A stretch of 64,000 bases of DNA from Onthophagus taurus. Taxonomy: Eukaryota; Arthropoda; Insecta; Coleoptera; Scarabaeidae. This document shows, piece by piece, positions 22,748 through 57,891 of the stretch (position 1 is the first letter of the stretch; each line of letters starts with the position of its first letter). The stretch spans positions 23,002,001 through 23,066,000 of the forward strand of contig NC_091976.1 in NCBI RefSeq assembly GCF_036711975.1, written 5' to 3'. The translations under genes were made by a program, and so were the position numbers. The notes under the pieces are model-generated. The model was given only the letters and a program-made list of their open reading frames with translations, had not been told where the DNA came from and made no database searches.

Positions 22748-23414
22748 ATGTTAACTGTAGAAGAAAGTTTTAATTCCAATTCAAATCTTTTAACTAGGAT
22801 AATTAAGAAAGATGAAATTAAACGTTGCTTAGATTTTTTGGAAAAGAATTTTTACACAGACGAACCGGTCAGTAAATATTTAGAAGTTCTGAGTAGTCTT
22901 GAATCATTGGAATATTTTCGAAATTTTGATAATCACTACATGGAACAAGATGTTTTGATAATTATGTTGAATGGACCAGAAATTGTGGGAATCTGTGGTA
23001 ACCATATCATTAAAAAAGGATTTGATGTTGAAATGAAACCAGTTCACCTACCTACAAATACAAATAATTTAGAAATTATATACGAGAAAAAATTGGTATT
23101 TTTGATAATTACCCAAATTTGGAAGCATATTTTAGGATAAGTGTTTGTTTTCTGGCTAAAAATTATCCAAAACAACGATTTGCAACACATTTAATAAGAG
23201 CATCAATTGATTGTTTAGGCTTTTAGCTGAAAAGTTGAACTATAAATTAATCATTTCTCAATGCAATAATTTTCATGCCAATAAAATGTTATTGGAGTTG
23301 GATTTTAACATTATTTATAAACAGAAATATAAAAATTATAAAGTTAATGGAGAAATCATTATTAATCCAGAATATCCTCATGAATATGTAACATTTTATG
23401 CACTTTTTATCTAA
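22748..23414 (+). pseudogene. aaNAT-like GNAT gene A, frameshifted
   Basis: An open frame from ATG 22748 encodes the front of an insect aaNAT-like acetyltransferase (FLEKNFYTDEPVS with the catalytic-type Glu; MLNGPEIVGICGNHIIKK). Near 23075-23095 similarity jumps one frame (GIFDNYPNLEAYFR, AKNYPKQRFATHLIRASID). Near 23205-23220 it jumps again to LLAEKLNYKLIISQCNNFHANKMLLELDF, ending at 23414. The acetyl-CoA loop is degenerate (PKQRFA where RGQGIA is expected). The phase-2 intron shared by C, E, G and AANAT1 is absent. It is best read as a recent pseudogene; assembly error at two places is the alternative. The start lies 275 bp from the divergent DnaJ gene. Confidence 0.75.
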
Positions 23415-24139
23415 ATGTTAATCATAATATTTATAGCAATAACTTGTAATACTTTGTGCATGAGTTGTTTAAGAAGTACAAGTTAATATACACTCTTTAC
23501 TTATTTTAATAGCTTCACTTCACAATAAGAATACTTCTTCCTCTTCAACGAACCATCTTATATCAAAAACCATTGCCTCATAATTACCAAACTAGGGCTC
23601 TTAATTGAAACAATATTATGATGTGAATTATAATAAATCATGTAAATCACATTTAAAAAATCTAAATTGCTATTAATACTAATGTTTCTGTAGATTCAAC
23701 TCTTCGATTTATGTTTCTATAACCCCAAATTTTTTGACAGCTTTTATTAAAATTTATTGAATTCTATTTAAAACTGTTAAATTCGAATAAAATCTTAAAA
23801 AACATGTTGCTTTTTATTAGATTTCAATTAATTCTTGTATATTTTAAAGTACTTTTTAGTTAAAAACACAATTGAGTTTGTTAATTCGATCTCATTTATT
23901 ATTAGTTAGAATTTCTTGAAAATCCACATTTTTCCTAAAACAAAGTTTAGTGGTGATCAATTTATTCAATTTTTATTAATAATTATAGTTTAAATTAATA
24001 AAATCATAAATTGATACGTTCAAAAACTTATGTTTTTCCTTTAATTTCTTCTTTTGATCAACCCCTTATATTTTCTTGACCAATTAGAGATAGGGATTCA
24101 AATCGAAAACAAAAAATGATCAAAGTAGGCGATGGTAGT
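23415..24139. other. Gap after GNAT A, nothing recognised
   Basis: AT-rich sequence with no gene, repeat or transposon signature that I can support. Confidence 0.5.
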
Positions 24140-24140
24140 C

Positions 24141-25099: not shown

Positions 25100-26270
25100 C
25101 TACAAATGTATTTGTCTGCAGGAAATGTCAGGCAATGACGATCTATCATTTCGTCTTAGTAGGAATGACTCGAGAGGAACTTGAGAGAAAGAGAGAGAAA
25201 GACCTATACGCTTATTCTTTGCCGTTTGGTGACGCGTCAGATTTAGGGGATATAGATGTAGATATAACAAATATTAATATATTTATTCCAGTGACTGACA
25301 GTGAACTGATTCAGATGACAACAAACCTTTATCTGTACGTACATCAAGCAAGAATTGAAAAAAAAACTACAGTTATCCAGCCACCTATTAGGGGTAAAAC
25401 GGAAAGATTTTCTTCTCCTCACCCTTGCGGTGAAATCAGAGGTTCTCAAATCTATATTCTCTGTTTTAACTATTTTTCGACGAAAATTTTATAAATCATA
25501 TAGTTTTTCAAACAAACTTTTATGCCGAGAACAAATACCTACTAGAAAACATTACAGGAGAACGACGTGCAAAGAAATAAATGCCTTTTTAGGAATAAAT
25601 TTGCTTATGGGGATCAAGCATTTACCAAGTTATACAGATTATTGGTTCAGTGCACCAGACTTACATGATTTTTACGTTAGTTCCCTTATGACACAAAAAA
25701 AATTTGGTTGGTTTTTAGGACATTTGCAATAGTGATTCGGAATATTTTGATCGTCTCTATAAAGTACGGCCATTGTTAAATCATTTAGAAAAAGTCTTTA
25801 AATATTGTCTTTTATCAGTGAAGTATTAACCTTGAGGAGTTGATGATTAAATTTAAAGGTAAAAGTGTGCTAAAAAAATATATGCCCAAGAAACCCATAA
25901 AAAGGGATGCTCTGCGATAAGTCGGGATACTGTTTGAAATTCGACATTTATACTGGAAATTCCCAGGATCAACTTATGGGACAAAGCCTTGGTTCTAGGG
26001 TTGTGAATAGGCTTCAAAGCAGCTTCAAAGAGGTGCATTCGATTGGTACACAAGTGATACAAAACTATTTGCAGTGAAATGGAAACATAAAAAGGTCCGT
26101 ACACTATTTGCCTGATAGATTAACGGCAAATGATTTCAGGAGGGCTGTTGTAGGTCCGATCTTGTAGGCGCAGTTTTAGTATCTAATTCCAAAAGGACTA
26201 AGGAATCACGACCACTAATACATTAAAAAATCAAAGCCGTTTATACCACAGAGTGTGCGATTAAACTTTG
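25100..26270 (+). pseudogene. piggyBac-family transposase remnant B
   Basis: Open stretches 25150-25494 and 25400-25732 read NKLLCREQIPTRKHYR, EINAFLGINLLMGIKHLPSY and DYWFSAPDLHDFYVSSLMTQ, followed by broken IKFKGKSVLKKYMPKKPIKR and GQSLGSRVVNRL. These are ordered blocks of a piggyBac transposase spread over several frames with stops. I could not fix both termini; the left could be near the TTAA at about 24725. Non-functional. Confidence 0.75.
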
Positions 26271-26510
26271 TTACGCATCAGCCTAAGCGTTGATCAAGAG
26301 GAAGGTGAGTCCTTATATACCTATGGAAGGGTGATATATAAGTCATAACTGTTACGTAAACCTTACTTTAGTACCTTATTAAGTTTTTTCTGCAATATTG
26401 CATAAGCTTATCGTAATTATAGGTTTAAAGATTTGAGAATTACTTAATTTGTAATATGTATATTTATTTTATTCATTCATGTTTTGAAAATGTATCAACA
26501 ACATTTTATT

Positions 26511-27278
26511 TTATTCTTTTGCTGGAGCCGCTTCTGTTTCTGGAGCTTGTTCTGCTGGTACCGCGGGATTAGCCTCGGTGATCGAAGGAGTTGGTGGAGC
26601 TATGGGGGATGGAAAACTTTTCAAAAATCCAGCATTTTCAATTTTCATGACATAAACTCCAAAAACTTCGTTACCATCTTCACCTTTAAAGACAAGTTCG
26701 TCATCTACCTTGTATTCATTGTAAACGATCTCGGCTAAACAGGTCCAGCCTTTCTTCTGGGCTACTTTTCCACAATCGGTGTTGCAAAAATCAATTCTCA
26801 TCAATTTCAAACCTAATTTGAGAGCAACTTCTTTGCTGTACTCAACTAAGCGCTTCACCAAACCTAGATCACGATCATCTTCGCTAACCGCCAAGAAGGT
26901 GACGTGAAGATATTGTTCGAATTCGGGGTGTTTGCCGAATATATCGGCTTTTTCGGTCGCATTGGTTATGAAATTTTCGATTTTTGTTAACGAAGCATTT
27001 TTCCAGGTGACTGGAGGTTGATCCTTGCGAATAACTGCATTACAAGCAACCCCGGCAACATCTCCTTCGCTGGTAGTTGCTACAACGGAGACGTTTTGGT
27101 AAAGGAGATTAGTACAAAATTTTCTTAATTCCTCAATGGCTTGTTGGTCTTCAATTAAAGATAAAGATTTCGAAAGTGGCTCGGCTGGGAAATAATTTTC
27201 CATTAAAAAGTCGACTACCCTAGGGATATCTTTGCAATGAACCATTCCAACGTTTAATTTACGAAGGGAGATGGACAT
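26511..27278 (-). CDS. aaNAT-like GNAT B1
   Basis: Intronless coding frame of 255 residues in the insect arylalkylamine N-acetyltransferase-like group. Front: VDFLMENYFPAEPLSKSL keeps the glutamate aligned with Drosophila Dat E47. The acetyl-CoA loop reads RDLGLV, with the usual final Gly/Ala changed to Val and the first Gly to Asp. The Dat serine pair region reads DFCNTDCGK, so both catalytic serines are gone. The C-terminal 35 residues are an Ala/Pro/Glu-rich tail (APETEAAPAKE) unusual for this family. A 5' UTR intron lies at about 27344-27288. In exon 1 the first ATG (27351) is followed at once by TAA, so translation should begin at 27278. A poly(A) signal (minus) is at 26468. Divergent from GNAT C. 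The substrate is unknown. Confidence 0.85.
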   Translation of the reverse strand: MSISLRKLNVGMVHCKDIPRVVDFLMENYFPAEPLSKSLSLIEDQQAIEELRKFCTNLLYQNVSVVATTSEGDVAGVACNAVIRKDQPPVTWKNASLTKIENFITNATEKADIFGKHPEFEQYLHVTFLAVSEDDRDLGLVKRLVEYSKEVALKLGLKLMRIDFCNTDCGKVAQKKGWTCLAEIVYNEYKVDDELVFKGEDGNEVFGVYVMKIENAGFLKSFPSPIAPPTPSITEANPAVPAEQAPETEAAPAKE

Positions 27279-27414
27279 TGTGGTGTTCTAAATGAAAAAT
27301 AAAAATGTTTAAGATAAAAATATTAAAAAAAGTTTAAAATTTACCTTACATGGTTGAAATGAAGTTGTTTTTCGTTGCGATGATTGTAGAAGTGGTTGGA
27401 AGAGCTGCACACAG

Positions 27415-27455
27415 CTAGAATGATGGTCGAACGTTTAATTCGGCTTTTATACCAA
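27415..27455 (-). promoter_or_regulatory. TATA-initiator core promoter of GNAT B1
   Basis: On the minus strand TATAAAAG (27452-27445) is followed 30 bp later by TCATTC, a full match to the arthropod initiator TCAKTY, predicting a start at 27422. The same pair at the same spacing is kept in B2. Confidence 0.7.
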
Positions 27456-27715
27456 AAAGTTTTGCAGAAACACCTCACAAGTGTTGTAATTTTTTGATAA
27501 AATACCATTTGATTATCGTATATTTAAAAATTTGTTGCAAAAATGTATGAGTAATAATTTAATTGGAACGTTTCGATTAAAGTTTATTAACTTCTTATGA
27601 CTTATGATTGACGTATTTAAATAAACGTCATAATGAATTTTCAAAATTTTTTGTCATTTGTCTACTATTTTTTAATAAAATAATTATTTTGGAAATTATA
27701 AGAAAATTAAAAGTA

Positions 27716-28552
27716 ATGAATTCCTTAAAGAAAATTACAAAATTTTGTTTAAATTATGCGAAGAGATTTCCTGTAAGACGATATACCCAGGTATATACCA
27801 CATAAATATTGTTCTAATGTGATTAAATATTTTTAAAATTTATTTAAGAATACGCAAAAAGGAATCTCGCCAAAATTAATTGAATCGGCAGATAAAGACA
27901 AATTGGTTGAGTTCTTAGCACAACATTATTACCCCTATGAGCCGTTAAATGTTTCTTTAAGAGTCGAACGGCTTCCGGACGCCGTAAGTGAACAAAGCGA
28001 GTTTTACGCCTCGCATGCGATTCAAGATAAATGTTCTTATATGCTTGTAAATAATGAAAATAAAATCGTTGCTGTAATTTTGAACAAGATCGAGACACGT
28101 TCTATGTTTACTCCATGGAAGTGTAAAAACCCGCATGTTTGTACACTCGCAAAATTTTATAATCACGTCTATTTGGAATGTATGGTTACCAAAAAATTCG
28201 ACACAGATAAATTTTTAAATATCGAAGTTGTAGCGGTTGACTTGAATTATGTGGGTAAAGGACTTTCGCAGTGGATGGTTACCTTAACAAAGTAAAAAAT
28301 TTGGTTCTTTTTAATATAAATTTATGTTAATTATCTTTTTTTAGGGATTATGCTAAAAATAATAAAATAAAATTGATTACGTTAATTTGTACGAGTAACT
28401 ATACAGCTTTGTCTGCAATGAAGGCTGGCTTTCTTGAAGCCTATAAACTTCACTATGTTGATTATCACGTTGAAGGAAAACAGGTTTTTAATCCGAAACC
28501 ACCACATAAGGAAGTTGTAGTTTTCGCATTGTCCATTTTTGTCACTCAATAA
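27716..28552 (+). CDS. aaNAT-like GNAT C
   Basis: Exons 27716-27790, 27849-28291 and 28345-28552, 241 residues. The first exon is a basic, acid-free leader (MNSLKKITKFCLNYAKRFPV, then RRYTQ) that looks like a mitochondrial presequence. Exon 2 has LAQHYYPYEPLN with the catalytic-type Glu, NKIVAVILNKIE, and an acetyl-CoA loop VGKGLS (Arg replaced by Val). Exon 3 begins after the phase-2 intron shared with E, G and AANAT1, and gives LICTSNYTALSAMKAGF, where the Dat serine pair is Ser and Thr. It ends HYVDYHVEGKQVFNPKPPH. The frame is intact and it is likely an enzyme, though the loop change weakens that. Divergent from B1 with about 290 bp between. Confidence 0.82.
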
Positions 28553-28559
28553 TTATTTA

Positions 28560-29788: not shown

Positions 29789-29980
29789 TGTTACGTAAAC
29801 CTTACTTTAGTACCTTATTAAGTTTTTCTGCAATATTGAATAAGCTTATCGTAATTATAGGTTTAAAGATTTGAGAATTACTTAATTTGTAATATGTATC
29901 AATTTATAAAGAGAGAATTTTTTTAATAATATTTATTTTATTCATTCATTCATGTTTTGAAAATATATCAACATTTTATT

Positions 29981-30831
29981 TTATTCTTTTGCTGGAGCCG
30001 CTTCAGTTTCTGGAGCTTCTGCTGGTACCGCGGGATTAGCCTCGGCGATCGAAGGAGTTGGTGGAGCTATCGGAGATGGAAAACTTTTCAAAAATCCAGC
30101 ACTTTCAATTTTCATGACATAAACTCCAAAAGCTTCGTTGCCATCTTCACCTTTAAAAACAAGTTCGTCGTCTACCTTGTATTCATTGTAAACGATCTCG
30201 GCTAAACAGGTCCAACCTTTCTTCTGGGCGACTTTTCCACAATCGGTGTTGCAAAAATCAATTCTCATCAATTTCAAACCTAATTTCAGAGCAACTTCTT
30301 TGCTGTACTCAACTAAGCGTTTCACCAAACCTAGATCACGATCATCTTCGCTAACCGCCAAGAAGGTGACGTGAAGATACTGTTCGAATTCGGGGTGTTT
30401 GCCGAATATATCGGCTTTTTCGGTCGCATTGGTTATGAAATTTTCGATTTTTGTTAACGAAGCATTTTCCCAGGTGACTGGAGGTTGATCCTTGCGAATA
30501 ACCGCGTTACAAGCAACCCCGGCAACGTCTCCTTCGCTGGTAGTTGCTACAACGGAGACGTTTTGGTACAGGAGATTAGTACAAAATTTTCTTAATTCCT
30601 CAATGGCTTGTTGATCTTCAATTAAAGATAAAGATTTCGAAAGTGGCTCGGCTGGGAAATAATTTTCCATTAAAAAGTCGACTACCCTAGGAATATCTTT
30701 GCAGTGAACCATTCCAACGTTTAATTTACGAAGGGAGATGGACATTGTGGTGTTCTAAATGAAAAATAAAAATGTTTAAGACAAAAATATTAAAAAAGTT
30801 TAAAATTTACCTTAACCCTGAAGGTGTACAT
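29981..30831 (-). CDS. aaNAT-like GNAT B2
   Basis: Sister of B1; by eye the proteins differ at four substitutions and one single-residue deletion in 254 positions. Exon 1 coding part 30831-30811 and exon 2 30754-29981. Here the 5' exon ATG stays open through the splice (MYTFRVK|NTTMSIS), so the predicted protein is 264 residues with ten extra at the front; a start at 30745 is possible. The loop (RDLGLV), lost serines and Ala/Pro/Glu tail are as in B1. TATA (30931-30924) and initiator TCATTC (A at 30901) are intact. Confidence 0.83.
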
Positions 30832-30894
30832 GGTTGAAATAAAGTTGTTTTTCGTTGCGATGATCGTAGAAGTAGTTGGAAGAGCTGCACACAG

Positions 30895-30935
30895 CTGGAA
30901 TGATAGTCGAACGTTTAATTCGGCTTTTATACCAA
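30895..30935 (-). promoter_or_regulatory. TATA-initiator core promoter of GNAT B2
   Basis: TATAAAAG to TCATTC at 30-bp spacing, the same as in B1. Confidence 0.7.
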
Positions 30936-31062
30936 ACATTTTTGCAGAAACACCTCACAAGTGTTGTAATTTTTTGATAAAATACCACTTGAATTATCGT
31001 ATATTTAAAAATTTGTTGCAAAAATGCATGAGTAATAGTTAAATTCGAACGTTTCGATGCTT

Positions 31063-31258
31063 TTTTAGGAATTATGCTAAAAATAATAAAATAAAATTGA
31101 TTCTGTTGATTTGTACGAGTAACTATACAGCTTTGTCTGCTATGAAGGCTGGCTTTCTTGAAACTTGTAAACTTCACTATGTTGATTATCACATCGAAGG
31201 AAAACAGGTTTTTAATCCGAAAAGACTACATAAGGAACTTGTAATCGTGTATTCGTAA
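31063..31258 (+). pseudogene. Last-exon remnant of GNAT C (C')
   Basis: It preserves the acceptor (TTTTTTAG) and exon 3 text (LICTSNYTALSAMKAGFLE, FNPKRLHKE) at high identity to 28345-28552, but exons 1 and 2 are deleted. It sits divergent from B2 exactly as C does from B1. It cannot encode an acetyltransferase by itself. Confidence 0.8.
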
Positions 31259-32860: not shown

Positions 32861-33143
32861 TTTACCTAACATTTTTTGGAAACTTGAAATAATGTCACTT
32901 GTTATTATACTTTTGAAATTTATTAATTCTAATTTATTTTATTTGGAAAAATAAAAAATTTGTACATAAAGTTGCCTATTTATCAGGAGTATGATTTTCC
33001 ATTCCAAGTTTGTAGTGAGATCTTCTCATAACTTTGAACTTTTCCACCTAATTTATAAAATATAATATAAATTAAAAAAGATAAGCGAGAAATTGGATCT
33101 ATAGCTATATTTGTACAAAGCGACAACAAAACGCATAACAAAT

Positions 33144-33830
33144 TTACCCGATTCTTTTACAATAAACACAAAATTCGGTGTGTGGTTCTTCTGGTTTAAA
33201 CACTTGTTTGCCGTTTATTTTATAATCTGAGTATTTCAAGGTGTAAATTCGTTCAAATCCCAATCGTTCGGCCGCTTTGGCACTAAATAAACTTGTACAA
33301 TCCACTCTTAATAGTTTTATTCCTCTCTTAATTGCCACATCTCTGAAAAAAAATTAAGAACAATTTTCATTGAAAAAATTAATTTTTGTTTTGTACCTAG
33401 ACATATCTAGTAATTTTGTAGCAATTCCTTGTCCTCTAATATTTGGGTCAACGGAAACAATATCATGTTGAAGATATTGATCGATATTTGGATATTTTTC
33501 AAAAATTTTACACTCTGTGTCGCCTTTCTCCATAATTCCAACGATTTGTGAGAAAACAGGATCTTCAAAGTTTACATCATCCGTTTCAATTTTTGTTCTA
33601 ATTTTATTTAAACACACTCCAACTATTTCATTTTTATCATTTAAAGCTTTTAACGAACAATTATATTTTATAGGTAACGTTGAATAAATTTCTAACGATT
33701 TAATGGTCTCTTCTCTTTCCCATAATTTTACACAAACATTCAACGGTTCATCTTTGTAGAAAAACTTTTTCAAAAACTGCTGCACTTTCGGCGTATCACT
33801 TTCCGTTAAAATAGCATATGACAGGTTCAT
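33144..33830 (-). CDS. aaNAT-like GNAT E
   Basis: Two exons, 33830-33397 and 33342-33144, 210 residues, intact. KKFFYKDEPLN holds the catalytic-type Glu. IVGVCLNKI and DIVSVDPNIRGQGIATKL give a full acetyl-CoA loop RGQGIA. After the conserved phase-2 intron, LLRVDCTSLFSAKAAERLGF keeps Ser at both positions aligned with Dat S182/S186, and the end reads YSDYKINGKQVFKPEEPH. All three features expected of a working insect aaNAT are present, so an active N-acetyltransferase for an amine substrate is likely. Which amine cannot be told from sequence. No leader peptide is seen, so it is likely cytosolic. Confidence 0.88.
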
Positions 33831-35020: not shown

Positions 35021-35024
35021 AAAC

Positions 35025-35900
35025 AGATACATGAAGGGAAGTATAAAAACTATAGACCTATTTCTATACTTCCTGTTTTTTTCAAAAATCTTCGAATCTC
35101 TATTAAAAAGCAGATTTCTTGAGTATATGGAAAGTAACAAATTATTTAATGAAGCTCAGCACGGTTACCGGGGATAAAAGTCTATTACTTTAGCTCTAAC
35201 TAGCTTGGTTTGACGAGAAGGAGGATGTTCAATTATTATGTTGTGACTTGTCAAAGGCTTTTGATTGTGTCCAACATGAAATTCTGTTGAATAAATTGGA
35301 ACATTATGGTATAATAGGTGTACCAAATAAAATGATTCGTAGTTATCTTAACAATAGAATGCAGTGTGTAGAGTGGAAAGGTCGAACTTCGGATGTTACT
35401 AATATTATATCTGGTGTGTGTCCCACAAGGATCAATTCTGAGCCCAATGCTCTTTATTATTTACATAAATGATCTTCCTATTAATATGTCAGCTGATCAT
35501 TTATATATATGCTGATGATACATCTTTTGTGCTAACGTCGAAATATAGAGTAGAACTTGAAAATAAGTCAGAAGTTGTTATAGCTGAAGCTGCGGAATGG
35601 TTTGGGGCCAACAGTTAATGTCGAAAAGACGCAAAAACTACTATTAACAACTAAAATTGAGGGACGGGAGCAAGAACCTATTACATTCCTGTGGATATAT
35701 GTTATGTCAAACCTAAGCTGGAACTCTCATGTTGAATATCTAGAAAGATGCCTGGCTGCAGCAATATTTACGGTCAGGCGCATACGGGCTATAGCTGGAT
35801 ATGAGGCCGCCAGAGCAACCTACTTTGCCAACTTTCGTAGTAGAGCGTCGTATGGAATACTGCATATGTGGAGGAGTTTCTTCAACTACCACCTTCGGAG
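35025..35900 (+). pseudogene. LINE reverse-transcriptase fragment
   Basis: Ordered RT blocks: NYRPISILPVFSKIFESLL with small shifts, YMESNKLFNEAQHGYRG, LSKAFDCVQHEILLNKLEHY, then a broken SGVCPTRI...YLHK, then FLWIYVMSNLSWNSHVEYLE and SYGILHMW. Typical of a Jockey-superclade LINE; decayed by several frameshifts and stops. Confidence 0.75.
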
Positions 35901-36338: not shown

Positions 36339-36340
36339 TA

Positions 36341-37047: not shown

Positions 37048-37803
37048 TTATATTTGGTCGTTAATTGGTGTGCGAGTAAAAGTAGGTGCAGATTTTTTTC
37101 TTTTAATACCCGAGTTATTTTCATTGTGAATTGTCTGTACAAAAACGGAATAACCGGTGTTGGGATAAATTAGTTGAAAGACGGGTTTATCATCAAGAAT
37201 GTAATTTTCGTAATTAACCGTATAAATTGGTGTAAATCCTAGTTTACGGGCAATTTTTGCGTGATGACTTCCAGTGGTGTCCATCCGAATTAAAGACATA
37301 TTTCTTTCATGAGCAAGATGTTTTGTCATAGCAATAAGTTTCCTTTGAATTGTATCACCTTCAACGGTCGGATCTGCAGTTAAAGCTTCCATTTTCACGT
37401 ATTGATCTATGGCAAATGTTTGAAACAGTTTACATTTTTCATCAACCGCCTCCACCAAATAAGCTATTTTTTGACAACGTTCATCGTGAAAACGGAAACA
37501 ATATCCGTATTCGCTAATAATCCGATTTAAGCTTATCCCTACTATTTCTTTATCACGATTTACCATTATTAGAGACATCTCCGATCTGAACGCCTCTTCT
37601 AGAAATTTTTCATAAGATCGTAAACCCGATGGACTTTTATGTAGATTTAACGAAACTAACAAAGGATCCTTATCGTAGAAATGTTGCCGAAGAAATTTTC
37701 TCGCTTTTCCGCGATTACCCTGGCGTATGACTTGCACTTGTAAATTCTCCAATGATTTCATCCCGAAATGACGAATTTGGGTAAATAAATATCTAATGGC
37801 CAT
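37048..37803 (-). CDS. aaNAT-related GNAT F, likely catalytically altered
   Basis: Intronless frame of 251 residues. The N-terminus MAIRYLFTQIRHFGMKSL is basic with no acids, mitochondria-like. The GNAT body aligns end to end with H. Key positions depart from the family: the catalytic-type Glu of xEPLN is Asp (YDKDPLL), the acetyl-CoA loop R/QxxGxG/A reads EGDTIQ, and the serine region reads DTTGSHHAK. The hydrophobic core strands remain (MSLIMVNRDKEIVGISLNRI, KIARKLGFTPIYTVNYENY) and there are no stops, so selection for a protein seems likely. A pseudoenzyme or an enzyme with a changed mechanism are both open; I favour the first. Confidence 0.82.
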   Translation of the reverse strand: MAIRYLFTQIRHFGMKSLENLQVQVIRQGNRGKARKFLRQHFYDKDPLLVSLNLHKSPSGLRSYEKFLEEAFRSEMSLIMVNRDKEIVGISLNRIISEYGYCFRFHDERCQKIAYLVEAVDEKCKLFQTFAIDQYVKMEALTADPTVEGDTIQRKLIAMTKHLAHERNMSLIRMDTTGSHHAKIARKLGFTPIYTVNYENYILDDKPVFQLIYPNTGYSVFVQTIHNENNSGIKRKKSAPTFTRTPINDQI

Positions 37804-39119: not shown

Positions 39120-39839
39120 ATGGACAGAAACGTTTTGAATTTATCATTTGAGGTAGCTAATACATCTGCGAAAAGAATGCAAGTATTAAAGTTTTTAAAA
39201 CAACATTTTTTTCTTGACGAACCCATCGTTGAAGCATCAAAACTCTACGAGGACGAACAAGGTTTAAAAGAACTCGAAAATTACACCAAGGCTTTAATTG
39301 ACGATGATTTATCTTTAATCGTTTCGGATTTGACAAGTAAAGAAATCGCGGGCGTTGCTGTGATTAGTGTAAAATATAAAAATCAAACAAAATCAGTGCA
39401 AAAAATTAAATCAAAAAAATTTGAAAGAGTAGCAAAATTTTTGGAGCACTTAGAAAATGAGGCTAAAACTTTCCAAAGAATTGATAACTTAGAAAAGGCG
39501 ATCTCTTTAGATATGTTATCAGTTAATCCCAATTATAGAGGAAAAGGACTGGCTAAAATTATGATTGAGAAAGTCATGTGATTATTATTTTGATAAGGCT
39601 GTGATTATGATGATAATCTTTTATTTTTTAGCAATTTTGCGAAAGAAAAAGGGTTTAAATTGATACGAATCGATTGTACAAGTTTATTTAGTACAAAAGC
39701 AGCGTTAAATCTAGGTTTTGAAAGTGTTTACAGAATAAAGTATGCTGAATATAAAGACGATGGAGAAATTGTCTTTAAAATCAACGAAAACCATCCTCAT
39801 CAAGAAGCTAACGCTATGCTACAAATAATTAATGTATGA
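39120..39839 (+). CDS. aaNAT-like GNAT G
   Basis: Exons 39120-39577 and 39632-39839, 221 residues, intact. LKQHFFLDEPIVEA keeps the Glu; LIVSDLTSKEIAGVAVISVK follows. MLSVNPNYRGKGLAKIM carries a canonical acetyl-CoA loop RGKGLA. The phase-2 intron is at the family position; after it LIRIDCTSLFSTKAALNLGF keeps both serines. It is closest to E by eye. Likely an active acetyltransferase with unknown amine substrate. An AATAAA lies at 39847, just after the stop. Confidence 0.88.
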
Positions 39840-40084
39840 GTTAATCAATAAAATTTAATATGTTATATTCAAACCTCTACTAAGACTGTTAATTCCTTTA
39901 TCTCTCCATTTCAATAAAAAAAATACAGTGAATTTCACTTAAGATGCAATATAGTTTGTCCCATATAAAATGCAACATGTCAAGTAAAACCTCGATATAA
40001 CTCAATACGAGGAATGCAGTGTCCGTTATAGCTCAATAAAAATATACAACAATCTAGCGATGAATAACAAATAAAACTAGACTT

Positions 40085-41090
40085 ACACTAGGACTAGAAC
40101 TAACATTAGAACTAGAAACATTCCGTTTAGTCGGCTAAACGTGTCATCTTAAGAGACATGCGGCTAAATCCGAATGTTTCTAGTTCTAGGTCTAGTGTTA
40201 GTTCTAGTTTTACACTAACACTATCATTAGAACTAACACAAGACCTAGAACTAGAATCATTCGGGTTTAGCTGTCTAGAGAGACGTGCGGCTAAATCCGA
40301 ATGTCTCTAGATCTAGGTCTAGGTTAGTTCAAGTTTTACACTAGCGCTGTCACTAAAACTAACATAAGACCTAGAACTAGAATCATTCGGGTTTAGCCGT
40401 CTTAAAAGACGTGCGGCTAAATCCGAATGTTTCTAGATCTAGGTCTAGTGTTAGTTTTGCAGCAGTACTGTCACTAAAAGTAACATAAGACCTAGAACTA
40501 GAATCATTCGGATTTAGCCGTCTTAAAAGACATGCATCTAAATCCGAATGTTTCTAGTTCTAGCTCTAGTGTTACATCTAGTTTTACACTAGCACTATCA
40601 TTAGAACTAACACAAGACCAAGAACTAGAATCATTCGGATTTAGCCGTCTTGAGAGACGTACGGCTAAATCCGAATGTTTCAAGTTCTAGATCTAGTTTT
40701 AGTTTTAGTTTTGCACTAGCACTGCCACAAAAAGTAACACAAGACCTAAAACTAGAATCATTCGGGTTTAGCCGTCTTAAAAGACGTGCGGCTAAACCCG
40801 AAAGTTTCTAGTTCTCGGTCTAGTGTTAGTTCTAATATTGTACTAGCACTATCACTAGAACTAACACAAAACCTAGAACTAGAATCATTCGGGTTTAGCC
40901 GTCTTGAGAGGCGTGCGGCTAAACCCAAATGATTCTAGATCTACATCTAGTGTTAATTTTGCACTAGTACTGTCACTAAGAGTAACATAAGACCTAGAAC
41001 TAGAAACATTCGGATTTAGCTGTCTTGAGAGACGTGAGGCTAAATCCAAATGTTTCTAGATCTAGGTCTAGTGTTAGTTTTAGTTTTAAG
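40085..41090. repeat. Array of palindromic 122-bp repeat (about 8 copies)
   Basis: GGCTAAATCCGAATG-type cores recur about every 122 bp. Each monomer has two palindromes, one rich in CTAG (AGTTCTAGGTCTAGTGTTAG and its mirror) and one around GTTTAGCCGTCTTGAGAGAC with mirror GCGGCTAAATCC. It carries no coding potential. Confidence 0.85.
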
Positions 41091-41199: not shown

Positions 41200-43418
41200 C
41201 AGGGTGTCCCAATTTCGATGTCTGCATAGGCCATCTCCGAAACTAAAAGAGATAGAAAAAAAGTAACTTACATGTCACGATCTCGTTTTTCGAGAAAATG
41301 CTAATGCCGAAAACTCCGAATAGCTATCGTCTTTTGTTTTTACCCTATCGGCAAAAACTGAAAATTTTGCAAAAACGACAATCGCGAATATCTCACTTAT
41401 TATCAAAGATGGAGTATTATAAATAAAACATTATATGGGCAACTTTTTACGAAGAATTCAGTGGCGTAGGTAGAATTTTTTTCCCATCTTTTATTTTCGA
41501 GATTTTAGACGTAACTTTATTTTTTTAAATGGAAACCATAGTTGGCTATGACTTAAAATAATTTGTTATTTTCTTCTGATAACAAATATATATAGTTTGT
41601 AGGGTATATTTCTTATGGTTATTGAATAATTAACAAAAATTCATTTTGTTCTGTCTAAAACTAATGTATGTATTTAAAAATTAATGTTGCTATGGTGATA
41701 ACCATACATACTATGATGGAACATAATGTATCAAATAATTGCCAAAGTTTGTATTTAAAAATTCGATATCAACTCTGGCATTATGTGCTGGCATTATGCA
41801 CCAGCGTGTTAGGTGTCAAAGTATAACAAAACTGAATAAAACTTTACAATGAATTTCGAAAATTATGAAAAATGTAACATGATGGAATGCTATATGTTAT
41901 CAGATAAGAATGCGACGTTAGCCGCGGAATTTTATTTCACAAGATATGCAGAAAATTTAAGAGATTTTTAGATATTTTTAGATATTTGATCCTTTCCCAA
42001 ACCACATACAAAAACATACCAAAATGACCTGCAAGAGAAACTGCAACAAGACGTCTGACCCAAAAGACGCTGCTCCCGAATATGAAAGAAAAATAAGTAT
42101 AAACCATACAAAGCGGGGCTAACTCATTATTTACGTGCCGGAGATGTCAATCGAAGATTAGAATTTTGTAGATGATATTTAAAAAAATTAAATAATCTGC
42201 TGTTTGTTCAAAATGTAATCTGGACCGATGAAGTCTCTGAGTGTTCAAAGAAGATTGGGGTTCAATATATGGTGTGCCCTTTTAGATAATAGAATTTTGG
42301 CATATAGTATCTACCATAAAAACATAAACTCAGGGAAATACCTCAATATATTAAGGCAGCACATTGAGCCTCTGGACGACAATTTGCCACAAAATATGTC
42401 TCAAATGATATATTTTCAATATGACGGAGCACCAGCACATAATGCCAGAGTTGTTAGTGAATTTTTAAATACTACTACAAACTCAAGGACAGTAGAATCT
42501 AACAGGACTGCTACATCCATTGTTGTGACAGCCTACCAGCAAACTACGTCACACCATTTTCCACGCCTAGCTGTTGTTATAGTCTATGCGTTTGCTGTGT
42601 GTTTTTAGAGGTTATATCCTAGACGTATTCATATTAGTTTTGAAGTTTTATGTTTTTAGACGTATTAATGTCTATCATATAACCTCTAAAAACATAGACA
42701 GTTAACAGGGCGTGGCAAATAGTGTGACGTAGAGTGCGGGCAACCAACCCGTAGTCGACTACAAAAATACAATGGATGTAGCAGTCCTGTTAGATTCTAC
42801 TGTCCTTGCTACAAACTTTGGCAATAATTGGAAACAATGCTTTCCCTCATAGTATGGTTATCACCATAACAACATTAAGTTTTAAATACATACAATAGTT
42901 TTAGAAAGAACAAACAAATTGATACATTATATTCCATCATAGTATGTATGGTTATCACCATAGCAACATTAACTTTTAAATACATACATTAGATTTAGAT
43001 GGAACAAAATGAATTTTTGTTAATTATTCAATAACTATAAGAAATATACCCCACAAACTATATATATTTGTTATCAGAAGAAAATAACAAATTATTTTAA
43101 GTCATAGCCAACTATGGTTTCCATTTAAAAAAATAAAGTTACGTCTAAAATCTCGAAAATAAAAGATGGGAAAAAAATTCTAGCTACGCCACTGAATTCT
43201 TCGTAAAAAGTTGCCCATATAATGTTTTATTTATAATAACCATCTTTGATAATAAGTGAAATATTCGCGATTGTCGTTTTTGCAAAATTTTCAGTTTTTA
43301 CCGATAGGGCGAGAATAAAAGACGATAGCTGTTCGGAGTTTTCGGAATTAGCATTTTCTCGAAAAACGTGATCATGACATGAGATAGCCTATGCGGACAT
43401 CGAAATTGGGACACCCTG
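41200..43418 (+). mobile_element. Mariner-like element with about 550-bp terminal inverted repeats
   Basis: Left end TA|CAGGGTGTCCCAATTTCG at 41200 and its inverse ending at 43418, with TA on both sides. Arms match nearly base for base to about 41750 and back from about 42840; the right arm has an extra internal duplication. Between the arms a decayed transposase runs 41850-42475: NMMECYMLSDKNATLAAEFY, RRLEFCR, VIWTDE with the first catalytic Asp, FNIWCALLDNRILAYSIYHK, and FQYDGAPAHNARVVSEFLN with the second. The final catalytic block is missing. Frames break between these blocks. Confidence 0.85.
42484..42808. mobile_element. 325-bp foldback MITE, MULE-like, inserted in the mariner-like element
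   Basis: Ends CAAGGACAGTAGAATCTAAC and its exact inverse; flanked by perfect 9-bp duplications CTACAAACT (42475-42483 and 42809-42817). Arms stay complementary far inward (GCCTACCAGCAAACTACGTC versus its partner; CTCTAAAAACA palindromes). No coding capacity. Nine-bp duplications fit Mutator-like elements. Confidence 0.85.
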
Positions 43419-43609: not shown

Positions 43610-44407
43610 ATGGCCATTAGAACATTCTCATTAAACCAAATTCGCAATATCTGCCGAAATGTAGAACATTTAGAAATCAGATTAATGCAGAAAAATGATC
43701 GCGTGAAGGCAAAGAAATTTTTGGAGAAACATTTTTACAAAAGACACCCTCTCCTCGTTTTATTGAACCTCGATAAAAGTCCATCGGGCATAGAGGTTTA
43801 CGACAAATATCTCGGAGAAGCGATCAAATCTGAATTGTCATTAATGATGTTGGACGATCGTAATGAAATAATTGCGCTAAGTGTGAATCGAATTATGGAC
43901 AGATATAGTAATAAGATCCAATTTAAAGATCCACGTTGTCAAAAACTTGCTTTTTTGGTGGAAGCGGTTGATGAAAAATGTAATTTATTCAAGAAATTCG
44001 GCGTAGATCGATATTTGAAGATGGAAGTTTTAGCTGCGGATCCGACGGTCGAAAATGGAGGAATTCAAAAGAAACTTATTAAGATAACTAAAAGTTATGC
44101 CCATCGAAAAAGTATTAAATTAATTCGATTTGATACTACTGGATATTACGATGCAAAAGCCGCTATTAATCTTGGATTTAAACCACATTATTCCCTTAAT
44201 TATGAGAATTACGTTGTGAATGATGTACCTATTTTTCGACCACCACCTCCAAACACTGATTATTCAGTTTTCGTACAGACCATTGACGATGGTAGTAATA
44301 AACCGGATCGTGTAAAATGCTGGAAACCTACTTTACCTAATATTACTTTCACGTCTATGTCGAATGTGTTTGTTAAAGAAACAAGTGGATCTCTTGATAA
44401 GGGGTAA
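43610..44407 (+). CDS. aaNAT-related GNAT H, likely catalytically altered
   Basis: Paralogue of F, about half identical by eye. The frame from ATG 43610 gives 265 residues. Leader MAIRTFSLNQIRNICRNV is basic and acid-free. The family Glu is replaced by His (YKRHPLL), the acetyl-CoA loop reads ENGGIQ, and the serine region DTTGYYDAK. Shared with F: LLVxLNLxKSPSG, RCQKxAxLVEAVDEKC, YENY. An alternative end exists: splicing 44403|GTAAAA...TTTTTTAG|44461 would swap the stop at 44405 for 30 further codons, ending at 44554 (KGDMRQKKSAIMIQNF and on), with frame and splice sites both good. No coding intron at the family position. The upstream TATATAAAA at 43495 may be its TATA box. Confidence 0.82.
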   Translation: MAIRTFSLNQIRNICRNVEHLEIRLMQKNDRVKAKKFLEKHFYKRHPLLVLLNLDKSPSGIEVYDKYLGEAIKSELSLMMLDDRNEIIALSVNRIMDRYSNKIQFKDPRCQKLAFLVEAVDEKCNLFKKFGVDRYLKMEVLAADPTVENGGIQKKLIKITKSYAHRKSIKLIRFDTTGYYDAKAAINLGFKPHYSLNYENYVVNDVPIFRPPPPNTDYSVFVQTIDDGSNKPDRVKCWKPTLPNITFTSMSNVFVKETSGSLDKG

Positions 44408-45965: not shown

Positions 45966-45996
45966 CGACAAGGAACTCTATTGATATGTATATCTA

Positions 45997-46405
45997 TACT
46001 CTGTTTTTAAACCAGGAGGAGTATTTTAAATTTGTCACCAGATTGACCTTGCACGTGATTAGTTGAATGCGAGGAAGGTTCACATACAGGCAATTTTGAA
46101 TTTTGATTTTGAATTTGAAGGTTAGGTAATTGATAATTCGACAGTTTCGTGTCATTATTGTATATTTTGTGTTCTTAAACCCTTTTTTATTATATTTTGA
46201 AATAAATACACTCATAACTTCAATGTTAATTTGCATGTATAGTGTTGACGATAACAAACGAAAATAAATACAATAATAAGTAAATAAATAAATAATAATT
46301 ATTAATTTTAATTTACCGCCAAAATATCTAGTGATGTTTTCTGGTGATTTTTCCCAGTGTAAATCTGACTTTCGCGTTTACTCCTCCTGGTTTAAAAACA
46401 GAGTA
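45997..46405. mobile_element. MITE copy 1, 27-bp perfect TIRs, TA target site
   Basis: Starts TACTCTGTTTTTAAACCAGG and ends with its exact inverse; TA on both sides. About 409 bp. Nearly the same as the copy at 46937. Confidence 0.85.
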
Positions 46406-46499
46406 TAGTTCTAGTGCAAGTGTTAGTTCTAGTTTTAATTGTTATTCAGCGCTAAGTTGTATATTTTTAAGTTTCGGGTTTAGCCCTGTGTCTTCAGAC

Positions 46500-46935
46500 G
46501 CTGAATGTTAAGTAAGGTTAGTTTTGTTTACAAACAGTAATTATACCATGAAGTATTCTTTGGCAATCAGTAATGACAATTATAGCGTGAAGTTTTCTTT
46601 TGTGATGTCAATTATAGCGTGAAGGAATGTTCGGTAAGGTTAGTTATGTTTACAAACATTAATTATACCATGAAGATATTCTTTGGCAATTTGTAATGGC
46701 AATTATAGCGTGAAGTTTTCTTTTGTAATGTCAATTATAGCGTGAAGGAATGTGAGGTAAGGTTAGTTTTGTTTACAAACATTAATTATACCATGAAGTT
46801 TTCTTTGGCAATTAGTAATGGAAATTATAGCGTGAAGTTTTCTTTTGTAATGTCAATTATAGCGTGAAGGAATGTTAGGTAAGGTTAGTTTTGTTTACAA
46901 ACATTAATTATACCTTGAAGTTTTCTTTGGCAATT
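46500..46935. repeat. Tandem repeat, about 120 bp x 3.6, between two MITE copies
   Basis: Units carry GGTTAGTTTTGTTTACAAAC, ATTATACCATGAAG and TCAATTATAGCGTGAAG, the last half-motif itself repeated. The array begins after a palindromic-repeat scrap (46405-46500) and is ended by MITE copy 2. Confidence 0.75.
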
Positions 46936-46936
46936 A

Positions 46937-47348
46937 TACTCTGTTTTTAAACCAGGAGGAGTATTTTAAATTTGTCACCAGATTGACCTTGCACGTGATT
47001 GGTTGAATGCGAGGAAGGTTCACACACAGGCAATTTTGAATTTTGATTTTGAATTTGAAGGTTAGGTTATTGACAATTCGACAGTTTCGTGTCATTATTG
47101 TAAATTTTGTATTCTTAAACCCTTCTTTATTATATTTTGAAATAAATACACTCATAACTTCAATGTTAATTTGTATGTTTAGTGTTGACGATAACAAACG
47201 AAAATAAATACAATAATAAGTAAATAAATAAATAATAATAATTATTAATTTAAATTTACCGCCAAAATATCTAGTGATATTTTCTGGTGGTTTTTCCTAG
47301 TGTAAATCTGACTTTCGCGTTTACTCCTCCTGGTTTAAAAACAGAGTA
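46937..47348. mobile_element. MITE copy 2, same family
   Basis: Same ends as copy 1, TA on both sides, about 412 bp, a handful of differences. Inserted into the tandem array (CAATTA|TACTCTG). Confidence 0.85.
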
Positions 47349-47479
47349 TAGTGTATATATGTAGACGCTTACACGTGGATCGTACGATAAGCGTCGATTA
47401 ACCTCGGATGAGATAAGAGAAGTAGCGCGCTAGATTAATGAATCAATTGTTAGGTCTACCCAGGCGATTAGGAAGTAAG

Positions 47480-50436: not shown

Positions 50437-53400
50437 TTAGTTGATCCTTTGAATGTAAACGGTAACTTCTTTGTGTGGATGTTCCGGATTAAATACTGGG
50501 CGACCTTCCTTCTTATAATCTTCATATTTTAACGAATAAATACATTGGAATCCAAGCCTGGCGATCGCTTTTGCACTAAAATGACTCGAACAGTCGCATC
50601 TCATTAACTTAAAATCTTGTTCTCTAGCAAGTTCTCTAAAGAAAAAAAGATAAAAATAAAAAAATAAATAATTGAGACTCTTTAAGTTGTTGGGTAAGTC
50701 ACCAGATGCAACCGAAAACGTCTTTAGTTTATTATTAATACGAAATGTTTGTTTATTTAATCAAATGTTTATTTTTTCTTGTTAATGAAGTGCTGAGCTA
50801 AGTCGTGGCGATTTTATTAAACTTATTCTAATTTTGAATTTAAATTAACAATTTAATTAATGCTTTTTATTGGGGTTGAAATGATTAAGAACGTGTTTAT
50901 TAGAATTTATGTAACAGCTCGATGAATATTTAATTACTCGTGTAATTGATTATTGTTTAGTTATAAACGGTACATTAACGCAAATTATCCGTTACACGTG
51001 CTTTAATGCCTATATCACGTTCATATATTTTATTGCCAAAGAAAAGTTTTCATTACCTCGTTTTATTCATAAGTTTCTTCGCTATTCCTTGCCCCCTCCA
51101 AGATTTATCAACTGATAAAATATCAACAGAAATCATTTTATCAATATCAGGATATTTTCCAAAAACATCAGCCATTTTATCTACGTAACTTAATAAATTA
51201 GTTATTTTCGAAAATTTCGGATCTTTAACAATAAATTCTTCTTTTCCATCGTTTTTATTTATAATTCCATTTAAGCAAACGCCAATTATTTTTCCTGAAT
51301 CGGTAATAGCCATAACAGAAACGTTATCTTTTAAAGCTTTCATTGAGTATTCTTCAAGTTCTTTACAAGTTTTTTCGCCGTCTAAAAGCTTTACATCCAC
51401 GTTTAACGGCTCATCCCGAAAGAAAAAAGTTCTTAAAAAATCTAAAACTTTTTCGCTTTCTTCTTTTTTAATAACTCTCAATTGAAAAGGTTCCGGAGGT
51501 GGTAATAATGGAGTATCCGGTGTTTGTGGTGTACAAGGAGTTTCAACGCTTGGTGGTAAACTCTGAAATAATAAATAAAAACAATTAAACCGAAATTGAA
51601 AGGGAAAACAGTTTTAATGACTTTATTTCAAACTGCGTAGTGAAGCTAATTAATTGCGTTGATTAATATGTTTTGTAATCCAAGTCAGGAATTTGTTTTC
51701 GGCTTTTTAAATTTAAATGAAAAATCGTAAAGAGAATAAGTTAAGTTGGTATTTGTTGGTTTATCATTTAAAAAAATTATGGGTTGTAACAAATTTCGAT
51801 TTGTAACGATGTTGGTAAAAATAACTTGGTTAAGTAAACGTTGCTCGTAATCTCGATTTGAATCGGTTTTCGTTGGTTGTTTGCCAAAGAATTTAACGTT
51901 TCCACTGTTCGATTTCCATGTTTGCTAAATGTTACTTAAATAAAGATAAATTGCTTTTAAACCTTTAAAAACGTTTAACATCATTTTGTTTGAAACGCAA
52001 ATGTAAAATATGATTTTGAAGTGGTTCTTAATGTTAAAATGTTTTTGCTTTTAGCAATTTAAATACTTATCGGTTAGTTATCCTTGAAAATATACATCAT
52101 ATATAATTATTTATTTCAGGAACGTTTTATGGAACAATAATAAGCAAATTCTTTTATGCAAATTGAGATATGTGTGATTTAAACACTCATTTATTTCACT
52201 CAGTTATTTAAACAGTTGAGTATGTATATAGGGTTAGCTAACAAAAACTTGCATATTTCCCAAGAGCGAAAACAAAGAGATGGGCTGACACCAACGTTGT
52301 TTAATCTGGGGTTGGAACTTACCATAAGAAAAATGAAAATAAGAAGTTGAATCTATTGATAACCAAATCAGTGTCCTATAAAAACGATATTAATATCTTA
52401 AGCCAAACAAGAAAGGATGCAGAAGAAACGTACCTATAGACAAATAGTCAGGAAGAGTCGTGAAAAAGAATATTTTGCAATACAATCAAATTTGAGGATA
52501 TACATAGAAATATGAAGTTCCGGATCTATAAAACAATTTTAAGGCTTTGTGAGAGAATGCTGTGGGACATGGACGTTAACTCAGAAACTGCTCAATAGCA
52601 TAGATGTCTTTAAGAAGAAGATCCTGGGAAGAATTGTAGGCCCAATATAAAACCAAAAACTCTCGGCGTACATCAAAATCCAGAGATTTTAATGGGCAGG
52701 ATATGTGGCCACAATGAAAGAGGGAAAACTACCGAAGCAACTATTTAACAGAAAAATGCAAGAACCGAGACTTATAAGCAAGAACACCAGGGCTGATACT
52801 GGACAGAGAAGCTTGGAGGCAAAAATTGAGAGATGCTATGATCATGCTAGTTGATCCTATTCAACTATAGTATTGAAGCTGTTAAACGACGTCTTGTTAT
52901 CTACTGATAATGGTGATACTGTAATTTTTCTTGATTTTACAAAGACTTTTGTCACAATTGATTTCCTGGTACTACCAAGATGTGTAAAGTTCTTGCCATG
53001 TACACATTTCAGTTCTCTAAACAATATTATGATTGTAAAATGTTTACTTTGCAATAATACTGCGTATAGACGAAATGTAAATTAATGTCATGTAGTTAAA
53101 TACAACTATAATTAATCGTGATTAGTGTCAACTTGATTTGTATATTAAGAGTAAATAGCACAGCTCTTTCATTCATTCAGCTTTTTGTTCATCTTCTAGT
53201 TACAAACATACTGGACACATCAATTTAATGATTTTCTAAAGCCCTTAAGTCGTAACCTCTTCAAAGTTGGCTTGTCAAATTGAATATGTTGTACCATCTC
53301 GTCGTTTTGTACGCAAGTATGATAGATGATACTAAGCTTTGCAGCGGTCTGTAGAGCCATTGAAGATGAAGAATTCCAAGAACGAACGGAAACATATTCG

Positions 53401-56400: not shown

Positions 56401-57891
56401 AATATATAAGGCATGCATCAGCTCTATTATGAGATATGCAAAAGAAACAAAGGCGGAGATGGCAGAAACAAGATGAGAGAAGAGTTGGTATCATGGATGT
56501 TGTGCAATGAATGCGAGGTTGGAACGAATAACATAACAGATTGTTAAAGATCATAGAGGATAGAAAACCACTGCCAAGGCAACTACTAGAACGCCCCTTT
56601 ATGTGGTGAAGGGATTATTAGCACAAGTAGAAGGATATTTTGCCGCATTAATTAATAAATACAAAATGTATTTCACATCGGATATGTTATTGAACAAATC
56701 TTTAAGCTTCCTTATTACTTTCATCGCGTGCCCAATCCAGTTCCATTTCCTCATGTGGGTGTCTTGACTGAGTTGGGTTTGTTTTACGAGTCTTCACACT
56801 TCCTCGGTTCTTATTCGGTCTGTTCATTTGATTTTTAATATTTTTCTGACGCATTTCTTGATAAACAGTTACAGTTTCGAGTCTATTCTTATTGAAGTTT
56901 TACACGTTTTAATGAATTGGGTATGCGCTGTGAAGGGAATTTGAAAATTTTGCAAGGACATTATGAAAAACACATAAATTGAGTATTTTGCGAAGTTTCT
57001 TTGATTGTTGCCAAATATTGCAATTAAAATTAAAGTTTTAGTGATGTTCCTTAGATTGAGCTAATATATTAAAACCTTAATCTAATCTTATCAAATGTTT
57101 TCTGATCTATTAAAACTGTTGAAAAGTTATCGTTGAAAACATAACAACATTTTAATGTGAATAAATATTTATCGATTACTTCGTTATTTGCCAAAATATT
57201 TCAGGCTTCCGCTAGTTAATTGGATTATTTGTGAAATGATTCTTAAATATAGATAAATTTCTTTTAAAACTTAACATAAATTTTCTTTGTGACGTCAAAA
57301 GTGGTTTAAAAAGGGTTCTTGAGACGTTGAAATGTTAATTCTTTTTATTTAACTGCTTCAACATTTCTCGGTGAGTTATCCTTGAAAATTTACAACGTAC
57401 AAAATAATTTTTGTATAAATAATTTTTTTATGTAAATCTTTTAAATTTTGATGAAAAACTGTAGTTAGATTACTATAAAAAATTGTTTGAAATTATTTAA
57501 AAAATTTAAACAATTATTCTTTAGAACATAACAACATTTAAAAACTGAAAAATGTTTGTTGATAAGAAAAAAAAATGTTTCAACTATTTGTTTTGAAACA
57601 AAAACCACTTAAAGTGATGTAAATTCAATTTCAATATGTGTTTATCTAAAAGATTAGTTTAGTTTCGCCGAGATGAGTTTTCTCTTGAACAACAAACTGT
57701 ATACAAATTTGAACATTAATAAATTGATTCTTGGCGCGATTCCAAAAAAATAATTTAAAGATCCAAAAATACACATTTGTATGCTTCAAAACGTTAAGTA
57801 GATAAACAATAATTTGCAGACTTACCACGAATTCTGAAAATTTCAATTTGGTGAATTTTTCTTGGATGTATGAAGGCATCTCCACGGCCAT
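50437..57891 (-). CDS. AANAT1: Arylalkylamine/dopamine N-acetyltransferase (AANAT1, Dat-like)
   Basis: Acetyl-CoA dependent N-acetylation of dopamine, serotonin and related arylalkylamines, feeding cuticle sclerotisation and amine inactivation in insects (family knowledge). Exons: 57891-57826 (MAVEMPSYIQEKFTKLKF, SEFV), 51562-51057, 50635-50437; 256 residues, phases 0 and 2. After a Pro-rich linker (TPQTPDTPLLPPPEPF) come LRTFFFRDEPLN with the Glu equal to Dat E47, GKIIGVCLNGII, and DILSVDKSWRGQGIAKKL with a canonical loop RGQGIA. Then DCSSHFSAKAIARLGF holds both catalytic serines, and the end is EDYKKEGRPVFNPEHPH. The closest member here to Drosophila Dat. Intron 1 is 6.26 kb and holds LINE, tandem-repeat and piggyBac sequence. 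The upstream exon is joined by its good donor, phase match and lack of any other ATG in frame. Confidence 0.9.
52240..52860 (+). pseudogene. LINE fragment in AANAT1 intron 1
   Basis: FNLGLELTIRKM, then ECCGTWTLT-like text, FKKKILGRIVGPI, and WAGYVATMKEGKLPKQLFN: the C-terminal RT region of an endonuclease-RT LINE. Several stops. Confidence 0.6.
53540..55720. repeat. Tandem repeat about 160 bp, split by piggyBac remnant C
   Basis: Units hold CCATATGGACC / CCATGTGGACCCAAATGTAG, GCAGCCTTGGCTAAACTTAG and AATCTATGACTTTGTCTGAT. Copies lie at 53540-53890 and continue at 55549-55720, so the element inserted into an existing array. Confidence 0.7.
53891..55548 (+). mobile_element. piggyBac-family DNA transposon remnant C
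   Basis: TTAA target duplications (53887-53890 and 55549-55552) and inverted ends CCCTTAACCCCAAACA / TGTTTCGGGTTAAGGG. The transposase is broken but ordered: LSDEELDEIADDPDRDPDYI, FDKFVSNSQKLF, MPFRDNCRVRIYMPSKPAKY, GYIYAGKDTDV, LGVGLSEEERKLSKPSQCVI, NRNVTPANYFTSIEVIDKLK, then C-terminal scraps to about 55200. Total 1658 bp; several frameshifts and stops. Confidence 0.85.
56330..56640 (+). pseudogene. LINE C-terminal fragment
   Basis: RIYKACISSIMRYAKETKAE followed on other frames by RGWNE and IIEDRKPLPRQLLERP, the family ...IMTYxxETRADT...WNEHISR...P tail. Non-functional. Confidence 0.5.

Follow-up and report, generated by a model that had tools for sequence, protein, structure and literature searches.

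Intron-free aaNAT-like genes with replaced active-site residues are under selection in a gene cluster of Onthophagus taurus

Introduction

Are acetyltransferase genes that have lost catalytic residues decaying, kept for a non-catalytic job, or rebuilt for another chemistry? The question is raised by a 64,000-nucleotide stretch of Onthophagus taurus (contig NC_091976.1, positions 23,002,001 to 23,066,000; the window), which holds a cluster of aaNAT genes at about 22.7–51.6 kb. A sequence-only reading of the window had described nine or ten such genes as one graded series of catalytic loss and proposed that pseudo-acetyltransferases or altered enzymes persist among them. We found that two intron-free lineages, B1/B2 and F/H, have replaced active-site residues, lie in separate clades and are under purifying selection. 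To judge from their residues, there is about an even chance that they encode selected, remodelled acyl-CoA proteins with changed chemistry or substrate, not dead enzymes. Insect aaNATs have roles in amine signalling, cuticle colour and cuticle hardening. Glu47, Ser182 and Ser186 are their proposed triad, with another group favouring Glu47 and a water (PMC7427786), and a salt bridge between Asp46 and Arg153 forms on acetyl-CoA binding (PMC7427786). Coordinates are window positions, and residue sites follow the numbering of Drosophila Dat.

Results

Purifying selection on intronless genes

The genes at issue are single open frames:

B1, 26514..27278, minus strand: intronless aaNAT-like gene, 255 amino acids; Ala46 Glu47 Arg153 Cys182 Cys186 Asn220
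B2, 29984..30745, minus strand: tandem copy of B1, 254 amino acids; 22 of 254 aligned codons differ, 18 of them synonymously
F, 37051..37803, minus strand: intronless, 251 amino acids; Lys46 Asp47 Glu153 Thr182 His186 Asn220
H, 43610..44404, plus strand: intronless, 265 amino acids, inverted paralogue of F; Arg46 His47 Glu153 Thr182 Asp186 Asn220

Selection was estimated by pairwise comparison within the genome, where the value for a pair averages its two genes. For B1–B2, the ratio of nonsynonymous to synonymous change (dN/dS, omega) was 0.075 by codon likelihood (p = 8e-8 against omega = 1) and 0.06 by NG86. For F–H it was 0.280 by codon likelihood (p = 2.5e-9 against omega = 1), a softer estimate because dS is 1.43, and 0.38 by NG86 (dN 0.372, dS 0.969). 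Three intronless relatives outside the window, L011 and L012 on contig C10 and L013 on C14, gave 0.355 (L012–L013), 0.211 (L011–L012) and 0.135 (L011–L013), and all five pairs departed from omega = 1 at p = 6e-5 or smaller. Comparisons with intron-bearing genes (B1–L014, F–E and H–E) were left unused because their dS was saturated. About 5% of point changes create a stop in four frames (B1, F, H and L012); at dS 1.4, our arithmetic gives several tens of stops expected over F and H together, and none is present. Neutral decay of B, F and H, for which a dN/dS near 1 had been named as the sign, is rejected by these ratios. A pattern scan for H over the genome contigs of a collection without insects gave 18 pattern matches, none of which was confirmed as an orthologue.

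Separate origins

One phase-2 GT-AG intron, right after the acetyl-CoA loop, is common to AANAT1, C, E and G of the window and to L014 and L020 outside it, by splice models based on GT-AG and shared phase alone; B1, B2, F, H and L011–L013 are without it. In C, AANAT1 and L014 the modelled first exon lacks a start codon, so these genes would need upstream exons, to judge from their frames.

We built a tree of 19 proteins that took in genes from outside the window (L011–L014, L020, L022 and L047) and excluded distant homologues at three places on C6 and at C10:4.25 Mb; from a second tree, two long rows (L047 and Aedes aaNAT5b) were removed. L014, which bears the intron and 9 of the 10 active-site residues, is sister to B1/B2 plus L011–L013 (support 100/100 for the group and 96/95 for the intronless five). 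The F/H pair (100/100) is placed apart from this B clade, with the same picture in the reduced tree, and the AU test rejects a single origin for the intronless copies as a group (p-AU 1.2e-4; 5.3e-5 for the reduced set). Because B and F/H fall in separate clades, active-site change occurred at least twice, and the one graded series of the sequence-only reading gives way to at least two separate origins plus a pseudogene (A, below). The two lineages would thus be independently derived, most likely via mRNA-mediated copying or intron loss. Members of the B clade lie 17.5 Mb from L014, their intron-bearing sister, or on another contig; F and H sit within the cluster although intronless, which bears on the new location expected of retrogenes.

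Active-site residues gene by gene

The intron-bearing genes of the cluster are:

C, 27867..28549, plus strand: exons 27867–28291 and 28345–28549; Tyr46 Glu47 Val153 Thr182 Thr186 His220
E, 33147..33830, minus strand: exons 33830–33397 and 33342–33147; canonical aaNAT, Thr182/Ser186
G, 39120..39836, plus strand: exons 39120–39577 and 39632–39836; canonical, Thr182/Ser186
AANAT1, 50440..51562, minus strand: exons 51562–51057 and 50635–50440, modelled without its 5' exon(s); canonical, Asp46 Glu47 Arg153 Ser182 Ser186 His220

AANAT1, E, G, L020 and L022 carry the canonical set (Asp46, Glu47, Arg153, Ser/Thr182, Ser/Thr186, His220), as does L014 apart from Cys at 182. Asp46 is replaced in B, C, F and H, and His220 is absent from B, F, H and L011–L013 (the alignment is gapped there in L012 and L013). 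The DEPLN motif with catalytic Glu47 is kept in AANAT1, B, C, E and G but not in F (Asp47) or H (His47). These site-47 residues agree with the sequence-only reading, and so does each loop: RGQGIA in AANAT1 and E, RGKGLA in G, VGKGLS in C, RDLGLV in B, EGDTIQ in F, ENGGIQ in H and PKQRFA in A. The R/QxxGxG/A loop is present in AANAT1, E and G, partly so in B and C, and not in F and H. The serine pair had been over-read: AANAT1 does have Ser/Ser, but E and G have Thr182/Ser186, C Thr/Thr and B Cys/Cys, and the Thr182 of E and G should not count as lost, since the active aaNATs AANAT2, aaNAT5b and the Tribolium enzyme also have it. That everything was lost is nearly true of H (His47, ENGGIQ, Asp186) and of F (with a conservative Asp47), each keeping only Thr182; it is wrong for B, a partial loss in which Glu47, Pro48, Arg153 and Gly156 are retained. 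Outside the window, L011, L012 and L013 have Asn, His and His at 46, Ser, Ala and Ser at 47, Ser, Ala and Gly at 153, and all have His at 182 and Glu at 186.

Across nine intact proteins (3 from the PDB, 6 from this genome), 32 columns are conserved, 10 in the active site and 22 elsewhere. Reference proteins score high by construction (active-site/other: E 10/21, G 10/18, AANAT1 10/22, L014 9/20). For the remaining genes, we list how many of the 10 active-site columns and how many of the 22 others are kept, then the Fisher p by identity and by similar residues:

B: 4, 18; 0.037, 0.06
F: 3, 15; 0.062, 0.096
H: 3, 12; 0.27, 0.056
C: 7, 12; 0.47, 1
L011: 1, 13; 0.019, 0.018
L012: 0, 15; 0.0003, 3e-6
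L013: 0, 15; 0.0003, 2e-5

Loss specific to the active site is clear in L011–L013, borderline in B and F, and not significant for H by identity or for C by either count; only L012 and L013, both outside the window, keep none of the 10 columns. Against Pfam Acetyltransf_1 (PF00583, cut-off 20.7 bits), AANAT1 scored over the cut-off (34.7 bits) and B1 under it (16.4 bits), and F and H had no match at E <= 1.

B, F and H also carry C-terminal tails of about 25–40 residues without counterpart in AANAT1, E or L020 (approximately 26514–26633 in B, 37051–37125 in F and 44288–44404 in H), of low predicted order in the modelled H and B1. F and H have an N-terminal extension, and their N-termini are basic, which may hint at a mitochondrial presequence.

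A reversed charge pair in F and H

Of nine conserved acidic columns, site 46 alone has turned basic in F as well as in H (Lys/Arg); of nine conserved basic columns, site 153 alone has turned acidic in the two (Glu). The chance that the one acid and the one base are the salt-bridge partners is about 1 in 81, a coincidence noted post hoc. Sites 47 and 186 hold Asp47/His186 in F and, in the opposite order, His47/Asp186 in H; among 250 aligned columns, Asp in F is paired with His in H once, and His in F with Asp in H three times. The reversed 46–153 pair and the Asp/His swap together favour remodelling over plain loss, and suggest that pocket closure and acid–base groups remain under selection in a new form.

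Predicted structures

AlphaFold2 models of H and B1 were made from 19-row alignments of direct translations only. Mean predicted local distance difference test (pLDDT) scores were 83.7 (H) and 84.9 (B1); by 10-residue block, the core is mostly above 90 and the C-terminal tails below 50 in both. Foldseek ranks 1–21 were insect aaNAT/AgmNAT entries for both models, with best matches to 4fd6 for H (TMt 0.84) and to Dat 5gii for B1 (TMt 0.87). Blocks 46–48, the acetyl-CoA loop and 182–186 align gap-free, and in both models site 182 precedes the expected helix and site 186 lies on it, the arrangement reported for Dat, so residues 182 and 186 appear replaced and not shifted. Displacement of the sites, the second thing that could have undone the sequence-only reading, was not seen there, although site 47 lies just off a helix in both models (on the helix in Dat) and the B1 loop is partly helical. 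Top Foldseek entries include, by title, Dat D46A (8wmb) and Dat E47D (5gif), crystallised with acetyl-CoA; D46A is the change in B and E47D the change in F.

Cluster layout and surroundings

The genome searched comprised 290.8 Mb and was taken as that of an insect on its aaNATs. A profile built from the eight window models, which match it by construction, gave 27 open reading frame pieces, 16 at iE <= 0.005 (ten loci) and 11 at iE >= 0.7. Independently of the profile, phmmer against PDB aaNATs gave 1.2e-22 for the first-exon frame of E, 8e-17 for B1 and 1.7e-16 for F; L012 matched 4fd5 at 4.8e-10. The cluster of the sequence-only reading is present, but with eight insect-type aaNAT genes that are open (AANAT1, B1, B2, C, E, F, G and H), a broken A that had been taken for an open, stop-free gene, and, as tenth copy, a lone exon:

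A, 22748..23414, plus strand: aaNAT pseudogene in three pieces of shifting frame, without intron
C2, 31043..31255, plus strand: orphan copy of C exon 2; 31061–31243 match at 92.35% identity

A is called a pseudogene because of two frame breaks, one around 23070–23100 and one of 14 bases (23209–23222) at the intron position, where about 3 are expected by eye and 14 are too short for an intron. Joint duplication of B and C fits the comparison of 20–60 kb with itself by blast (26350–27577 against 29789–31058 at 92.6%; C exon 2, 28337–28519, against 31061–31243 at 92.35%). An eleventh copy, L020 (C11:23069949–23073392), starts about 5 kb beyond the window end, where the cluster continues; it is canonical, with two exons, RGRGIA and Thr182/Ser186, and groups with the window's AANAT1 (support 87/96).

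Thymidylate synthase (PF00303, 1.8e-86; 19020–19910, plus strand) adjoins the cluster. Between the aaNAT genes lie a DDE_Tnp_1_7 transposase remnant at 25319–25729, presumably of piggyBac type, and a reverse transcriptase remnant at 35200–35469 (RVT_1, under its cut-off). Inverted repeats in 41271–43381 (464 bp, 95.7% identity) flank an open reading frame at 42219–42608 that looks mariner-like and had no Pfam match at E <= 0.01. Minisatellite-like direct-repeat blocks, 74–96% alike, lie around the cluster (20456–21558, 40078–41088, 45995–47352 and 59019–60000). Of TTAGG, the repeat usual at insect telomeres, the whole genome showed a 30-base array at a single place (two overlapping exact hits), so this repeat seems absent or unassembled.

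Discussion

The proposal that pseudo-acetyltransferases or altered enzymes persist in this cluster thus withstands both the selection and the alignment results, once A, the serine criterion and the single series are set aside. In the reading we prefer, AANAT1, E, G and partly C would be ordinary insect aaNATs, and B and F/H would have kept the aaNAT fold with rebuilt active sites. In F and H, the cofactor-pocket switch may be retained as a charge-reversed Lys/Arg46–Glu153 pair whose members would touch, with Asp47 in F and the His47/Asp186 pair in H as candidate general bases. In B, Glu47 would stay the base, with Cys in place of Ser/Thr at 182 and 186. Cofactor binding and any catalysis are likewise read from residues. 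A bolder version, which we hold to be unlikely, is that F and H are working acyltransferases whose acid–base pair was relocated between helices and whose cofactor-sensing salt bridge has reversed polarity, and that the B clade tried Glu47/Cys182/Cys186 and then, in L011–L013, His182/Glu186. If true, the catalytic groups of a single GNAT scaffold would have been re-sited in several ways by nature.

Several points weigh against remodelling. In AgmNAT, changing the Glu to Ala leaves 0.05–0.07% of kcat (PMC5647378), and the same change nearly abolishes activity in three further aaNATs (PMC6070697), so H could be inactive. A Bombyx aaNAT with Ala in place of its Asp46 equivalent loses ligand affinity tenfold (PMC7427786), which bears on B, and the D46A and E47D crystals of Dat carry no demonstration of activity. 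Statistics for site-specific loss in the window genes are weak, with a reference set chosen as intact, and the salt-bridge and Asp/His arguments are post hoc and come from residues, not contacts. The deeper forks of the tree are weak, which leaves the closest intact relative of F/H unplaced by it. The link between intron loss and active-site change would rest on two contrasts: L022 lacks the phase-2 intron yet has intact catalytic residues, and the distant L047 lacks it and keeps them except for Asn48 and Lys220. That intron loss always accompanies active-site change was rejected as a rule by these two genes. In AgmNAT, Ala at the match of Ser186 left about 9% of kcat and at that of His220 about one eighteenth (PMC5647378; number matching our own), and Dat R153A had a kcat raised about fivefold with a higher Km (PMC6070697).

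That F, H, B and above all L011–L013 are true pseudoenzymes, their fold retained for a role without catalysis (binding amines or CoA, for example, or pairing with an active aaNAT), is plausible, at somewhat below an even chance. L012 and L013 keep none and L011 one of the ten active-site residues, yet 13–15 of the 22 others; omega for L012–L013 (0.355) and the disappearance of His220 point the same way. Against this reading stand the Glu47, Arg153 and Gly156 retained in B, the acid at 47 in F and, in F and H, a 46–153 pair that is reversed rather than just lost. Of what marks a pseudoenzyme, selection and a predicted fold are found here, complete residue loss in L012 and L013 only, and F, H and B have alternative acid or base residues. 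An artefact (misaligned sites, a wrong gene model or assembly, or B1/B2 as two haplotypes of one gene) is improbable: the splice models could err and A's breaks could be assembly errors, but F, H and B need no splicing, the motif blocks are gap-free with 182/186 in the expected model elements, and a single contig holds B1 and B2 at a distance of 3.47 kb, only one of the two sides having its C copy cut to exon 2. Neutral decay, which did befall A and C2, with frames still open by chance is the least probable of all for genes whose five pairs show omegas well below 1; for F and H, the expected stops are also missing.

Selected paralogues with replaced residues open to direct testing what Glu47, Ser182/186 and the Asp46–Arg153 switch do, roles that are in dispute, and would show a GNAT rebuilt, or made a non-enzyme, more than once within one genome. 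In searches of open-licence literature on insect gene families, tandem expansion, intronless retrogenes, GNAT pseudoenzymes and hymenopteran gene duplication, none of the titles and abstract openings listed described such a family.

Among known systems, Drosophila Dat (3te4, 5gif, 8wmb) shares with H and B1 the motif order and the predicted fold (TMt 0.83–0.92 between the two models and the listed Dat entries), at 22–25% identity. It is identical to the window's AANAT1 at 46–48, 153, 154, 156–158, 182, 183, 186 and 220; relative to Dat, F and H are changed at 46, 47, 153, 158, 183, 186 and 220, among others, and B at 46, 154, 158, 182, 183, 186 and 220. B1, F and L012 each have Aedes aaNAT2 (4fd5) as their top sequence match in the PDB, and F has Tribolium AANAT (6v3t) as its second; these two enzymes have Thr182, as do E, G, C, F and H, but keep Asp46, Glu47, Pro48, Arg153 and the RGxGxA loop. 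Aedes aaNAT5b (4fd4/5yag) is an active spermine acetyltransferase (PMC5858766) with EEG and RGHSLG, so an enzyme can be active with other residues in place of the Pro of DEP and the second Gly of the loop; it differs in keeping an acid at 46, Glu47, Arg153 and His220. A precedent for altered bases is Drosophila AANATL2, an active enzyme whose DEPLN Glu does not act as the base and where suspicion falls on a His (PMC6070697), with the difference that, by its description, the Glu is still present.

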